A stretch of 64,000 bases of DNA from Leptolyngbya sp. Heron Island J. GTDB taxonomy: Bacteria > Cyanobacteriota > Cyanobacteriia > Phormidesmidales > Phormidesmidaceae. The position numbers and the translations under genes were made by a program. Shown piece by piece: positions 45,576 through 52,345 of the stretch. Location of the stretch: positions 124,001-188,000 of the forward strand of contig NZ_AWNH01000012.1 in NCBI RefSeq assembly GCF_000482245.1. Reading direction: 5' to 3'. The notes under the pieces were generated by a model. It searched no databases and had not been told where the DNA came from. It worked only from the letters and a program-made list of their open reading frames with translations. Numbering within the stretch: the stretch's first letter is position 1; each line of letters begins with the position of its first letter.

Positions 45576-45591
45576 AGAACAGACCTAAAGA

Positions 45592-45636
45592 AGAGCCCTG
45601 GTGATTCTTGATGGATCACCAGGGCTCTTAATTTTT
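45592..45636 (+). terminator. Rho-independent terminator of msrA
   Basis: A perfect 14-base stem (AGAGCCCTGGTGAT, 45592-45605, and its complement 45615-45628) encloses a 9-base loop and is followed by TAATTTTTT. It begins 17 bases after the msrA stop. On the minus strand no T-run follows, so it mainly serves msrA and insulates the convergent small peptide gene. Confidence 0.92.
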
Positions 45637-45685: not shown

Positions 45686-45862
45686 TTACTTAGTACGCTC
45701 GTCAAGCTGGTCCAGACGCTCTGCCTGAATATCCTTAACACTCTTAGTCTGATTGTCTAAGTGCTCAAGACGCTGCTCATGAAGCTTGTTACCACCTGCA
45801 ACATCCTTTAGCTGATCATCAGACAATTGCTCGTCAGTAACGTTCTTGTTCTGCTCTTCCAT
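45686..45862 (-). CDS. 58-residue double-glycine leader peptide, RiPP/bacteriocin-like
   Basis: This small peptide has a leader EQLSDDQLKDVAGG (11-24), the LSDxxLxxVAGG pattern of Nif11/NHLP-type and other double-glycine precursors. The following 34 residues are highly charged and helical, with an internal near-repeat: RLEHLDNQTK (31-40) and RLDQLDERTK (49-58). There are no cysteines and little serine/threonine, so a lanthipeptide is unlikely. The ATG at 45862 has GAGGTAA 5 bases upstream; a longer frame to 45943 has neither ribosome binding site nor sense. It is divergent from the short NHLM-type HlyD protein at 46191, which suggests a secretion link. No modifying enzyme or export ATPase lies nearby. 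Confidence 0.65.
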   Translation of the reverse strand: MEEQNKNVTDEQLSDDQLKDVAGGNKLHEQRLEHLDNQTKSVKDIQAERLDQLDERTK

Positions 45863-46143
45863 GGAAGTTACCTCAATCAATGTAGAAACAACAAAAGTCT
45901 TGTCCGGTCGTCTAACACAGGACTCCCCAATCATATCGAGCATCTCGCAAAATGGAAGAGATTTTGTCAGCTTCTCATGAATTTTTAATGATATATGGGG
46001 TTTTGAAGAGTTTTCTGAGGTTTTATTAAGAGATCAGAAGTCAATTGTGATGAAATCCAGTTAAATGCAGCTCTAATTATTAGAATCTCCTGAGTATGGT
46101 CACATTTGCTCAACTTTCTGCTATAAGGGGCATTGAGACTTCA

Positions 46144-46190: not shown

Positions 46191-46781
46191 ATGGGCGACA
46201 GTAATATTTTTCGTCGAGAAGCTTTAGAGCGGTTATCTTCTCCAGAGCAGCTTGACCAGCTGATGCAAATCGTCTCACCTCGTAGCTGGTTGCCACTAGC
46301 GACCGTTGGCGGATTGTTAGGAGCTGCTATTTTTTGGGCCTGTGAAGGGCGCATTCCTGTAACCACTAGTAGCCATGCCATCCTGGCCTATGCTGAAGGC
46401 GAGTCTGGTGAATTAGTTGGCGTAGCACATTTCCCCACTGGAGAGCTGGCCCAAATTGAACCGGGCATGGATGTCCTGCTAATTCCTGATGTAGAAGGGA
46501 ACAAACAGGCGGCTGGGGGTATAGAAGGCAAGGTGAGTCAGGTGTCACTGCCCACGGTGATGACCCTAGATGGTGTCCGTCAGCTAGATGATCCAGCTGC
46601 GCCTACGACCATTGAGGTGCTGATTGAACTGACCCCTGATCCTAATACCAGTAGTGGTTACAAATGGTCTGCCAGCAGTCTTAACATGATTCCTTTGGGA
46701 GGCATGCATGCCACTGCCAGGGTAACCCTGGATGAGAAAGCTCCCCTCTGGTTTGTTCTGCCCTTTTTACATCAGTCCTAA
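46191..46781 (+). CDS. Short NHLM-type HlyD/membrane-fusion-like protein
   Basis: This 196-residue protein starts NIFRREALERLSSPEQLDQLMQIVSP, the characteristic N-terminus of the NHLM bacteriocin-system secretion protein (HlyD family). One transmembrane helix (about 33-51) follows, then a short beta-domain (GELVGVAHFPTGELAQIEPGMDVLLIPD) and the family C-terminal motif SGYKWSAS. The lipoyl domain and long alpha-hairpin of full-length adaptors, normally between helix and beta-barrel, are absent, leaving a clean internal deletion in family terms. The frame is intact, with a strong ribosome binding site (GAGGTGAGG, 46177-46185). It is divergent from the leader-peptide gene. A role as stub adaptor or regulator of peptide export is inferred. 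Confidence 0.72.
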   Translation: MGDSNIFRREALERLSSPEQLDQLMQIVSPRSWLPLATVGGLLGAAIFWACEGRIPVTTSSHAILAYAEGESGELVGVAHFPTGELAQIEPGMDVLLIPDVEGNKQAAGGIEGKVSQVSLPTVMTLDGVRQLDDPAAPTTIEVLIELTPDPNTSSGYKWSASSLNMIPLGGMHATARVTLDEKAPLWFVLPFLHQS

Positions 46782-47808: not shown

Positions 47809-47932
47809 CTTTAGTTTTCCGTCCTTCGCTATAGCAATCCTACCGTGATTGCACCGGCTGTTTCACAGGCCTGGCTGGGATAGAAAATCTCTAAGTAGTA
47901 TCCTAGTTCTCAAGCCACATTTGAAAAGCTGC

Positions 47933-50900
47933 ATGGAGTTTGAACAGGCCCTGGCCCTGGTGAATGATGCCATGTCTGCTACTTTTAGCAGGCTGCTCAG
48001 TGATGCGGAATTAGCCTTATTCAAAGGAGCCTGGCACGGACAAACCTATGACGTTATTGCTGAGGAATCTGGCTATGCATCGAGTTACTTTACCCGAATT
48101 GTCGGCCCCAAATTTTGGAAAAATCTTAGCCAGGCCCTGGGGGAAAAAGTTAGCAAAACCAGTTTCCGTGCCGCTATCGAACACCGACAGCAACAACTCA
48201 ATCAGGCCCCCTCTACTCTCCCTGCCGTCCCGGCTCCCTCGTCTGCCACTACTTCCCACCCCCTCGCCATCGACTGGGGTGAAGCCCCCGACGTTACCGC
48301 CTTCTACGGACGTCAAACCGAACTGGAAACGCTGACCCAGTGGGTCATTACCCATCGCTGTCGCCTAATCGGCGTTTTGGGCATGGGGGGCATCGGTAAG
48401 ACTACTCTGACTGCAAAATTTATAGAAACGCTAGAGGCACGCACAGACTATCCGTTTACCCATATCATCTGGCGGTCGTTGCGTAATGGGTTGCCCTTAG
48501 TTGACTGGTTAGATGAGGTGATCCCGTTTATCTCCAATCAGCAGGACACCGAAGCCTCTCCTAAACGATTGCTCTACTGGCTGCGACAGTCTCGTTGTCT
48601 ATTGATTCTCGACAATATGGAGACAATTTTGCATAGTGGAGAGCGAGCGGGTTCTTTTTGTGAAGACTATGCAGACTATGGCGATCTGTTAAAGCTACTG
48701 GCGGAGACGCGCCACCAAAGCTGTGTAGTGCTCACCAGCCGAGAAAAACCGGCGGTGGTTGGGGCCTTTGAAGGCGTCGATTTGCCAGTGCGATCGCAAT
48801 CCCTAACCGGCTCCCCTGAAGCTGCCAGCGCCCTGCTGGATGCCAAGGGATTAGTGGGAACAGTGGCTGAAAAACAATCACTGGGAGAACGCTACAGCTA
48901 CAGTCCCTTAGCCTTAAAGATTGTTGCCACCTCAATTCAAAGTCTTTTTGAAGGGCGTATAGACCTGTTTCTGGCCGAAGATACCCTGGTTTTTAATGGT
49001 CTGCAGCGACTGTTAGACCAGCAATTTGAGCGACTAACGGCTCTAGAAAAAACCATGATGATCTGGTTAGCCATTAACCGAGAATGGACCTCTATTAGCG
49101 AACTGGTTGACGACATTCAACCAACCGTTGCCAGGATACAGGTTTTAGAAACCCTGGAATCCCTCAGTTGGCGGTCCTTGATTGAGAAACAAGCAGGACG
49201 CTACACCCAACAACCGGTGGTGATGGAATATGTCACTGGCCAATTTATTCAACAGGTGTTGCCAGAACTTAACGGAGCTGAGCTGTCATTGTTTCTCAGC
49301 CATGCGCTGCTGAAAACCACTGTCAAAGACTATATTCGCCTGAGCCAGCAGCGGTTGATTGTGCACCCTATTGCCCATCAGTTTGCCCGTAACTTTAGCG
49401 CCAGGGCGATTTTAGCACAACAGATCCAACGGTTATTGACTACCTTAAGGCAGCCGCCTCAACAGTTTTCGGGGTACGGTGCTGGCAATCTGTTGAACCT
49501 ATGTATTGAACTCGATGTGGATTTGGCCGGGTTGGATTTTTCCCATCTGCCCATCCACCATGCCTATTTACAACAGACTTGTTTGCACCAGGTCAGTTTT
49601 GTGGGGGCCACCTTTATTCATACGGCCTTTACCCAAACCTTTGGCAATGTATTAGCGGTGGCCTTTAGTCCCAATGGTCAGCTGTTAGCGGCCTCTGATA
49701 CCAATGGGCAGATTTGGCTGTGGCGAACCGATCACCTGGAGCAACCCTACCTTACGTGGCAGGGGCACGGAAACTGGGTCTGGAGTCTGGACTTTAGCCC
49801 CGACAGTCAGTTTCTGATCAGCGGCTGTGATGATGACGATGACACCCTGAAACTGTGGGATGTGCAGACGGGGCAGCATCTGCGAACATTAATGGTGCCT
49901 GAAAGTCGGGTACGCACTGTCCGCTGGCATCCACAGCAGACACTGATCGCCAGTAGCGGTGTGGATGGGATGGTGCGACTCTGGGAACCGGAGACGGGGG
50001 ACTGTGTGCAAACCCTGGCAGGACACACCAATAAATCGTCAGCCTTAGCCTGGTGCCCTCAGTCAGATAGAGCACATATTCTCGCCACGGGCAGTGCGGA
50101 TCAGACCATTCGAACTTGGGATACCGAGACTGGTGACTGTTTGTGGGTGATGGATGTGGGGGTGGGCGTGTTTGCGATCGCATGGCACCCCGATGGCAAT
50201 ATCCTAGCCAGCGGTAACAAAAATGGCGATGTGCAGCTTTGGGATAGCCATACTGGTGCCTTGCTTAACACCCTCCAAGGCCATCAAAAATGCCTTTGGA
50301 GTTTAGCCTGGAACCGTGACGGTAGACTGCTAGCCAGCGGTGGGGATGATTACAGTATTCGGCTATGGGATACCCAAACCGGGCAGTGTCTGCGGATTCT
50401 CCAGGGGCACCAAAATGCAGTGCGGGCCGTAGGATGGCAGCCTGGGCTAGTCGCCAGTCCCTCGCCTCCTCAATCCGAAGAGAGTTCCGAACTATTGGCC
50501 AGTGGATCGTTTGACCAAACAGTGCGGCTATGGAGTCCACGGGCGGATGCTTCTCTCAAAGTGTTGCAAGGGTATCGCAATGGTCTACAAGCCCTAGCCT
50601 GGCATCCTAGCAATGCCGTGTTAGCTAGTGGTGGGCACGATCGACAGGTGCGGCTGTGGAATACCCAAACCGGCCAATGTTTGACAGTGTTATCAGGTCA
50701 TAGTCAACCAGTGTGGTCAGTGGCCTGGAGCCAGGATGGTCAATTAGCCAGCAGTGGCGACGATCAAACCATCTGTCTATGGCATATGGCAACAAACCAG
50801 ATCGATGCCGTCTTAAAAGGCCATCAAGGGAGTATTTGGGATCTGGCCTGGCACCCTACCCAGGGTACCTTAGCCAGTGCCTCCCATGATCAAACAGTAC

Positions 50901-52345
50901 GGCTATGGAATACCGCAACGGGTTGCTGCCTAACAACGTTGAAAGGCCATGCAAGCTTTGTACGCACTGTAGCCTGGAGTCCTGATGGGCGTCTCTTAGC
51001 CAGTGGTAGCTATGACCAAACCCTCAGACTCTGGGATGTGGCCACCGGAGACTGTTTACACATACTAGATGATCCAGAAAACTGGGTGTGGCGGATGGCG
51101 TTTAGCCCCAATAACAAGACCCTGGCAACCGGCAGCACTAACGGTGATATCAAGCTGTGGCAGGTATCTACAGGCAAGCATATACAGACGCTCAAGGGTC
51201 ATCAAAATTCAGTTTGGTCACTAGCATGGCGTCCTAATGGTCGTACTTTAGTCAGTAGTTCTCACGATCAGACGGTCAGGATTTGGCGGATAAGTGATGG
51301 CCAGTGTCTGCAGGTGCTTAAAGGACATACTAATCTGATCTGGCAAATGGCACTAAGCCCAGACGGAAAGACCATTGCCAGCTGTGGGTCAGATGAAACC
51401 ATTCGGGTCTGGGATGCGGTTGCAGGCACCTGTTTAAAAGTCTTGCGACCTTTGCGCCCCTATGAAGGAATGAACATTACCGACGTGCAAGGGCTGACCG
51501 ATGCCCAGCAGATAAATTTGAAGCGTCTCGGTGCGGTAGTAACAACAATAAACACATCTGTATCATCACCAGAGACCTCAACACCTGCAATTCCTGTCAG
51601 TTCTGTCAAAGATAATGAACCCCCTTTAAGGATTAGTTTATTTGGTGGGTTGACGATCGCCTATCAACAACAGCCACTGAGGAATCTGGGCTCTAGTCGC
51701 ACCCAATCGCTCTTGGCCTATCTGTTGTTACATCGCCATAGTAACCAGTCTCGTCAGCAGATTGCCCTAGCTTTATGGCCTGATTCTTTAGATAGTCAAG
51801 CTCGTACTAATCTCCGCAAAGAATTGCATAATCTGCGACGCCATTTACCCCAGGCTGAAGCCTATTTAGAAATTAACGCTAGTCAACTGGGCTGGCAAAA
51901 TCAAGCGCCTTTCTGGCTAGACGTGGAAGACTTTGAGCAAGTGCTGATTACGGTAGATAATCAAGCCGAAGGGGAAGCCATTTCCAGTTTGGAACAGGCT
52001 GTTGCTCTATACACCGGAGATTTACTGCCTGCCATGTATGACGAGTGGCTTTATCCTATACGAGAAAAATTCCAGCAACAGTTTAGTCAAGCCCTGGCTC
52101 AGTTAGTTGATATTTTACGAAAACAGGAAAAGTACTCACCAGCATTAACCTATGCAGAAAGGCTATTACGGTTAGATCCGCTCAAAGAGGCTACTTATCA
52201 ACGGCTAATGCAGCTACATAATCAATTAGGAAATCGTGCTACGGCTCTTCAGATTTATCATCAGTGCATGACCATCTTGCGAGATGAATTAGGGGTTGAT
52301 CCTAGTTCTAAGACACAGGAGATATATAGGCAGTTGTTACAATAG
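47933..52345 (+). CDS. NB-ARC ATPase with WD40 repeats and C-terminal SARP/BTAD
   Basis: This 1470-residue protein has, in order: an N-terminal helical domain (1-85, ending GPKFWKNLSQALGEKVSKTSFRAAIE) typical of cyanobacterial STAND proteins; an NB-ARC NTPase with P-loop GMGGIGKTT (150-158); a helical region; a pentapeptide-like strip (about 530-568); fourteen WD40 repeats (570-1172, each ending like LWDxxTG); and a SARP-type winged helix plus BTAD (about 1231-1470). In AfsR-type regulators the SARP module is N-terminal; here it is last. The start at 47933 begins the conserved domain; an in-frame ATG at 47849 adds 28 unrelated residues. It probably senses a ligand through the WD40 propeller and activates transcription upon nucleotide exchange. 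Confidence 0.88.
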   Translation: MEFEQALALVNDAMSATFSRLLSDAELALFKGAWHGQTYDVIAEESGYASSYFTRIVGPKFWKNLSQALGEKVSKTSFRAAIEHRQQQLNQAPSTLPAVPAPSSATTSHPLAIDWGEAPDVTAFYGRQTELETLTQWVITHRCRLIGVLGMGGIGKTTLTAKFIETLEARTDYPFTHIIWRSLRNGLPLVDWLDEVIPFISNQQDTEASPKRLLYWLRQSRCLLILDNMETILHSGERAGSFCEDYADYGDLLKLLAETRHQSCVVLTSREKPAVVGAFEGVDLPVRSQSLTGSPEAASALLDAKGLVGTVAEKQSLGERYSYSPLALKIVATSIQSLFEGRIDLFLAEDTLVFNGLQRLLDQQFERLTALEKTMMIWLAINREWTSISELVDDIQPTVARIQVLETLESLSWRSLIEKQAGRYTQQPVVMEYVTGQFIQQVLPELNGAELSLFLSHALLKTTVKDYIRLSQQRLIVHPIAHQFARNFSARAILAQQIQRLLTTLRQPPQQFSGYGAGNLLNLCIELDVDLAGLDFSHLPIHHAYLQQTCLHQVSFVGATFIHTAFTQTFGNVLAVAFSPNGQLLAASDTNGQIWLWRTDHLEQPYLTWQGHGNWVWSLDFSPDSQFLISGCDDDDDTLKLWDVQTGQHLRTLMVPESRVRTVRWHPQQTLIASSGVDGMVRLWEPETGDCVQTLAGHTNKSSALAWCPQSDRAHILATGSADQTIRTWDTETGDCLWVMDVGVGVFAIAWHPDGNILASGNKNGDVQLWDSHTGALLNTLQGHQKCLWSLAWNRDGRLLASGGDDYSIRLWDTQTGQCLRILQGHQNAVRAVGWQPGLVASPSPPQSEESSELLASGSFDQTVRLWSPRADASLKVLQGYRNGLQALAWHPSNAVLASGGHDRQVRLWNTQTGQCLTVLSGHSQPVWSVAWSQDGQLASSGDDQTICLWHMATNQIDAVLKGHQGSIWDLAWHPTQGTLASASHDQTVRLWNTATGCCLTTLKGHASFVRTVAWSPDGRLLASGSYDQTLRLWDVATGDCLHILDDPENWVWRMAFSPNNKTLATGSTNGDIKLWQVSTGKHIQTLKGHQNSVWSLAWRPNGRTLVSSSHDQTVRIWRISDGQCLQVLKGHTNLIWQMALSPDGKTIASCGSDETIRVWDAVAGTCLKVLRPLRPYEGMNITDVQGLTDAQQINLKRLGAVVTTINTSVSSPETSTPAIPVSSVKDNEPPLRISLFGGLTIAYQQQPLRNLGSSRTQSLLAYLLLHRHSNQSRQQIALALWPDSLDSQARTNLRKELHNLRRHLPQAEAYLEINASQLGWQNQAPFWLDVEDFEQVLITVDNQAEGEAISSLEQAVALYTGDLLPAMYDEWLYPIREKFQQQFSQALAQLVDILRKQEKYSPALTYAERLLRLDPLKEATYQRLMQLHNQLGNRATALQIYHQCMTILRDELGVDPSSKTQEIYRQLLQ

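Follow-up and report, generated by a model that had tools for sequence, protein, structure and literature searches.

The peptide gene and its surroundings

The stretch of Leptolyngbya sp. Heron Island J DNA analyzed here, 64,000 nucleotides in length and referred to as the window, carries a gene for a short precursor peptide with a double-glycine (GG) leader. Translation of the minus strand yields a leader, MEEQNKNVTDEQLSDDQLKDVAGG, followed by a core, NKLHEQRLEHLDNQTKSVKDIQAERLDQLDERTK, and a stop codon; on the plus strand, stops interrupt the reading over 45686-45862. A gene for a shortened HlyD-type adaptor (mini-HlyD) points away from it. The features of the locus are as follows.

45862-45686, minus strand: GG-leader precursor gene, 58 aa, read from the sequence; stop codon at 45688-45686
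45791-45862, minus strand: 24-residue leader ending in GG, LSDDQLKDVAGG, from the sequence, with residues invariant in homologues
45689-45790, minus strand: 34-residue core without cysteine, predicted as a single helix, from the sequence and AlphaFold2
45743-45772, minus strand: core unit 1, RLEHLDNQTK, from self-alignment
45689-45718, minus strand: core unit 2, RLDQLDERTK, 18 residues after unit 1, from self-alignment
45871-45874, minus strand: GAGG ribosome-binding motif, read directly, 9-12 nt before the ATG of the peptide gene
45998-46030, minus strand: three 11-bp direct repeats, CTTAATAAAAC CTCAGAAAACT CTTCAAAACCC, upstream of the peptide gene and resembling the array of the Sec genes discussed below
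46191-46781, plus strand: mini-HlyD of 196 aa and clade A3, oriented divergently to the peptide gene and matching TIGR03794

Between msrA and the peptide gene lies a terminator-like hairpin with a 17-bp stem (45591-45629). The window also contains, at 47849-52345, a 1498-aa frame that, judged by eye, resembles an NTPase plus WD40 repeats with a SARP/BTAD-like C-terminus.

Leader, core and homologues

A preliminary description of the locus had proposed a 24-residue GG leader and a 34-residue core devoid of cysteine, and both are borne out by the minus-strand translation. The search for homologues that it suggested can now be reported: the GG motif is kept in all 17 homologues aligned, in which leader positions S14, L18, V21, G23 and G24 are invariant. 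The near-repeat of the core halves is likewise real. Self-alignment of the core scores best at an offset of 18, a score equalled in 22 of 20,000 shuffles (p about 0.001), and the internal repeat is stronger in several orthologues than in the window peptide. Among 41 automatically scored peptides, the core repeat reaches p ≤0.01 in 32, a tally that is an undercount where scoring began at the last GG. The GG motif and a duplicated core are kept across Leptothoe/Adonisia, Nodosilinea and relatives; a Nostoc-like family, in whose precursors every core copy has a GG of its own, is more distant. Orthologues at 79-98% identity occur in five sister genomes of the genus (G002-G006), and named relatives are Adonisia turfae, Leptolyngbya sp. 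PCC 7375, Leptothoe kymatousa and a Leptolyngbyaceae MAG. One further GG peptide of this family occurs per genome (L009 4676-4855; L062, L063, L064, L072), unlinked to any part of the cassette.

Comparison of the peptide gene with its PCC 7375 orthologue gave a dS of 0.49 and a dN of 0.007; for the core alone, the values were 1.05 and 0.012. Judged from these substitution rates, purifying selection is strong on the gene, in the core as well as in the leader.

No Pfam or NCBIfam profile scored above cut-off for the peptide. The poor fit to Nif11 peptides noted earlier holds up: neither the Nif11-type (TIGR03798) nor the NHLP (TIGR03793) leader model matches the peptide at E values up to 10, and a PDB sequence search returned a sole, weak match, of the leader region to a Nif11 chain (E 0.15). 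A lanthipeptide had been considered a poor fit as well, and we agree for this and for any other Cys/Ser-modified RiPP, given a core free of cysteine and no modification enzyme noticed beside the peptide gene in the loci read, by inspection rather than by a dedicated search. The further suggestion of an unmodified helix gains support from the same two observations and stands as a prediction: AlphaFold2 folds the core into one helix spanning residues 24-57 (pLDDT 76-83 in the core blocks, from a shallow alignment of 17 sequences). The hydrophobic moment of the core at 100 degrees (mu 0.207) does not exceed chance (shuffle p=0.29), which weakens a reading as a membrane-active amphipathic helix; we consider such a helix unsupported.

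A shortened adaptor and its export cassette

The mini-HlyD aligns to positions 1-55 and 287-420 of TIGR03794 with nothing between them in frame; it is thus without positions 56-286, the middle 230 profile positions, and at 105.9 bits it falls below the model cut-off of 156.2. With mini-HlyD as bait, an unbiased search of 390 Cyanobacteriia genomes returned about 48 loci whose frames are short and match the full model. Full-length adaptors match the mini-HlyD model in separate stretches only, and the mini-HlyD stands clearly apart. On these alignments, the mini-HlyD forms a separate class among HlyD-type adaptors.

By our own count, a GG peptide lies close to mini-HlyD in about 43 of the 48 loci. 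In many genomes the peptide gene is usually arranged head-to-head with a complete NHLM-type cassette, which in other genera consists of a TIGR03896 protein of the two-domain cyclic-nucleotide-binding type, the mini-HlyD, the C39 transporter TIGR03796 and the partner ABC protein TIGR03797. In the window, mini-HlyD alone of this cassette adjoins the peptide gene; the genes for the C39 transporter and its ABC partner are on the same contig at a distance of about 97 kb (L074; 1127 and 993 bits), and no TIGR03896 protein was found next to the cassette in this genome. Genome G028 has, in addition to a mini-HlyD cassette, a separate full-length NHLM HlyD (C28:42768-45310; L186, L204; 359 bits), which is accompanied by a TIGR03896 gene of its own.

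Taken together, we hold it very probable that a mini-HlyD NHLM cassette exports the peptide in unmodified form, as a duplicated helix. From what is known of the family and from the linkage, the C39 domain of the TIGR03796 exporter would recognize the leader and cut after GG, and TIGR03796, its partner TIGR03797 and mini-HlyD would carry the 34-residue core across the inner membrane. The middle segment missing from mini-HlyD should hold the hairpin by which full-length adaptors reach the outer-membrane channel TolC. Without the hairpin segment, the likely first stop of the core would be the periplasm, where it would presumably be released. Hairpin nanotubes have been described (PMC8277102).

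Repeat proteins with matched units

Beyond the preliminary description, comparison across genomes indicates that the peptide is part of an export cassette that is conserved, and that its core unit recurs in repeat proteins with Sec signals. The window genome encodes about nine such proteins (MKRTLLSALTVLVASAAIAPVASA...), each with 3-10 copies of the unit. Their genes are scattered in the genome, none adjoining the peptide gene, and several lie at or near contig ends (G000: start of C111, end of C48, end of C117 and start of C13; L014, L016, L010 and L017). Breaks in the assembly are therefore probably due to the repeats, and the count of about nine is a minimum. The proteins have no Pfam or NCBIfam match above cut-off either, and AlphaFold2 predicts one of them (L013) as an unbroken helix of 176 residues (pLDDT mostly >94, from a shallow alignment of 14 sequences).

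In related genera a different unit, VNFDELRRENLDKDA, is present in GG peptides and Sec proteins alike, and a third occurs in Nostoc-like genomes, where it reads LNERFDxARxENLDK in GG peptides and SDRFDEARRENLDKG in Sec proteins. Genome G240 has the identical alternation of two unit types in its GG peptide and its Sec protein. The best identity of GG core to Sec protein over 14 residues was 10.2-12.2 within lineages as against 4.9-8.8 between them. In each of three divergent lineages, the GG peptide is accompanied by Sec proteins bearing that lineage's unit, a comparison that rests on few clades and not on many independent events. The pairing across genomes is not strict: GG peptides occur without detected Sec relatives in G030, G034, G277 and G367, and in G009 a GG peptide was not detected, though Sec repeat proteins are present. 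On the genomes compared, this counts as evidence against co-assembly of the two families. In plasmid records, no relative of the Sec protein of the window lineage (lineage A) was found, and for lineage B the search returned one pentapeptide-repeat protein at 24% identity, which we do not accept as kin.

The shared unit might reflect nothing beyond common ancestry and recombination of repetitive genes, which recombine readily, and the small number of clades is in keeping with this. However, GG and Sec genes of the window genome agree in codon at only 2-6 of 10-11 identical residues, making recent gene conversion unlikely and leaving recent transfer unsupported. Both families have moreover shifted the same way in each of three lineages, including the unit alternation of G240, and recombination of coding units would not predict the shared promoter array described below. 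We therefore consider ancestry without a functional link very improbable.

A shared promoter array

All eight Sec genes with readable upstream DNA have, about 110 nt ahead of the start, an 11-bp direct repeat in five copies. When both strands of the 64-kb window were scanned with a matrix for which Sec genes alone had served as training set, the best site was 46030-45998, upstream of the peptide gene, with a score of 16.3 versus 5.0 for the next. Genome-wide, the exact array pattern matches the eight Sec promoters and no others; with one mismatch allowed, there are 37 matches (several overlapping in one array), among them the promoter of the peptide gene, as compared to seven for a reversed control. 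Lying between two divergent genes, the array could serve mini-HlyD instead. It is recognizable in four of six orthologues of the peptide gene and weak or missing in the other two, as it is in the second GG paralogue. For lineage B, a lineage-specific matrix left the array undetected in most GG genes and thus gives little support. Nostoc-like (lineage C) GG genes (L210-L214, L260) have an upstream 11-bp array of their own, TTTATCCAACA, unlike that of their Sec genes.

The array is of a kind bound by OmpR/PhoB-type regulators, a class assignment that we infer. GG peptides can act as signals in other bacteria, and a response-regulator-type array would suit a peptide that is an intercellular signal, with the GG and Sec genes belonging to the response. 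Such a role leaves the up to ten unit repeats of the Sec proteins unexplained, and in the loci read, the peptide has no recurrent neighbor encoding a dedicated receptor; we find it improbable, marginally more so than the toxin discussed in the next section.

Possible role in the envelope

The occurrence of matched repeats across two export routes points to a structural partnership. We tentatively favor, at somewhat less than an even chance, a structural helix that is unmodified, cleaved after GG, exported by the NHLM cassette and co-assembled with the Sec repeat proteins. In the periplasm, the core would meet the long helical rods exported by Sec and bearing the same unit, and might pack against these, forming a short end piece, cap or linker within an assembly of the envelope or matrix. 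Cleavage, destination, helix formation in vivo and physical association of the core are all inferred here, and direct partnership with the Sec proteins is in itself a guarded proposal, a little more doubtful than the favored reading. More guarded still is the broader picture of a two-route envelope system, in which a GG peptide leaving by an NHLM cassette, with a mini-HlyD uncoupled from TolC, co-assembles with Sec rods under a common promoter of response-regulator type, the units coevolving in each lineage. The observations point to GG peptide and Sec proteins as a system of the cell envelope or matrix that has not been described before; in the open-access literature, we found no description of the core unit or of multi-core GG precursors in cyanobacteria.

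Most of the data would be accounted for equally well if the GG peptide and Sec proteins stayed apart and both bound one third partner, such as cell wall, polysaccharide, outer membrane or a receptor, that dictates the unit of each lineage. Matched units and a shared promoter array fit this arrangement just as they fit co-assembly, and it would accommodate the occurrence of either family without the other. Yet no common target is known, and a highly charged helix offers no hint of a binding site, so that we regard a shared target as rather unlikely.

A bacteriocin-type toxin directed at related strains, with the Sec proteins as immunity factors or decoys soaking up the peptide in the periplasm, would agree with the usual labeling of NHLM cassettes as bacteriocin exporters (PMC2887384, PMC3140520) and with several Sec copies per genome versus one or two GG peptides. 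We judge it improbable. The core is constrained (dN 0.012), which counts against a rapidly diversifying toxin, and its amphipathicity at the helical angle is insignificant; genomes with the GG peptide only would be without a decoy, and the Sec genes are dispersed, away from the peptide gene.

Relation to known systems

The export cassette is the one known from NHLM/NHLP bacteriocin export, with three genes (Haft et al. 2010, PMC2887384), and it corresponds to the group V cassette of Wang et al. 2011, which likewise has a protein with two CAP_ED domains (PMC3140520). The present system resembles these in having a TIGR03796 C39 ABC transporter, TIGR03797, a HlyD family member and a TIGR03896 protein beside a GG precursor. 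It differs from them in its HlyD, which lacks profile positions 56-286, in a short leader that is neither NHLP nor Nif11 by NCBIfam, in the lack of any modification enzyme seen here and in the recurrence of the core unit in Sec proteins.

The nearest functional precedent appears to be EbfG1-4 with PteB, GG proteins of Synechococcus elongatus biofilms that are exported by a C39 transporter and act in the matrix (PMC4997328, PMC9981879); the likeness, drawn from published descriptions, is one of role and architecture and not of sequence. Both cases involve small GG proteins, a C39 transporter, a cyanobacterium and a proposed structural role outside the cytoplasm. Mature EbfG proteins, however, are 6-7 kDa and partly amyloid-forming, whereas the present core is smaller and a charged predicted helix.

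As in multi-core RiPP precursors (microviridin, cyanobactin; PMC5934393), several core copies occur, most clearly in Nostoc-like members. In contrast to those precursors, no modifying enzyme was seen, and the two units of the window lineage remain together in a single predicted product.

GG peptides labeled as bacteriocins abound in cyanobacterial genomes, few of them with a tested function. With its shortened adaptor and a peptide unit that also travels by Sec, the recurring cassette described here offers a testable alternative to that label, and mini-HlyD could serve as a marker gene for finding such repeat-core peptide systems.

Several other mini-HlyD cassettes (L265-L268, L270, L272, L274, L275) accompany precursors with up to four GG-core copies, whose cores differ widely (EDGGFLHQTEG, EDGGYRRQNPEG, HDSGQYSG, EDGGQYSKK). 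When Sec partners were sought for the EDGGFLHQTEG-type peptides, nothing but further GG precursors came up. At L215 (6552-6845), a GG peptide with three different units (LSGxSxEEFExGLGNK) is found with a cassette of another family.
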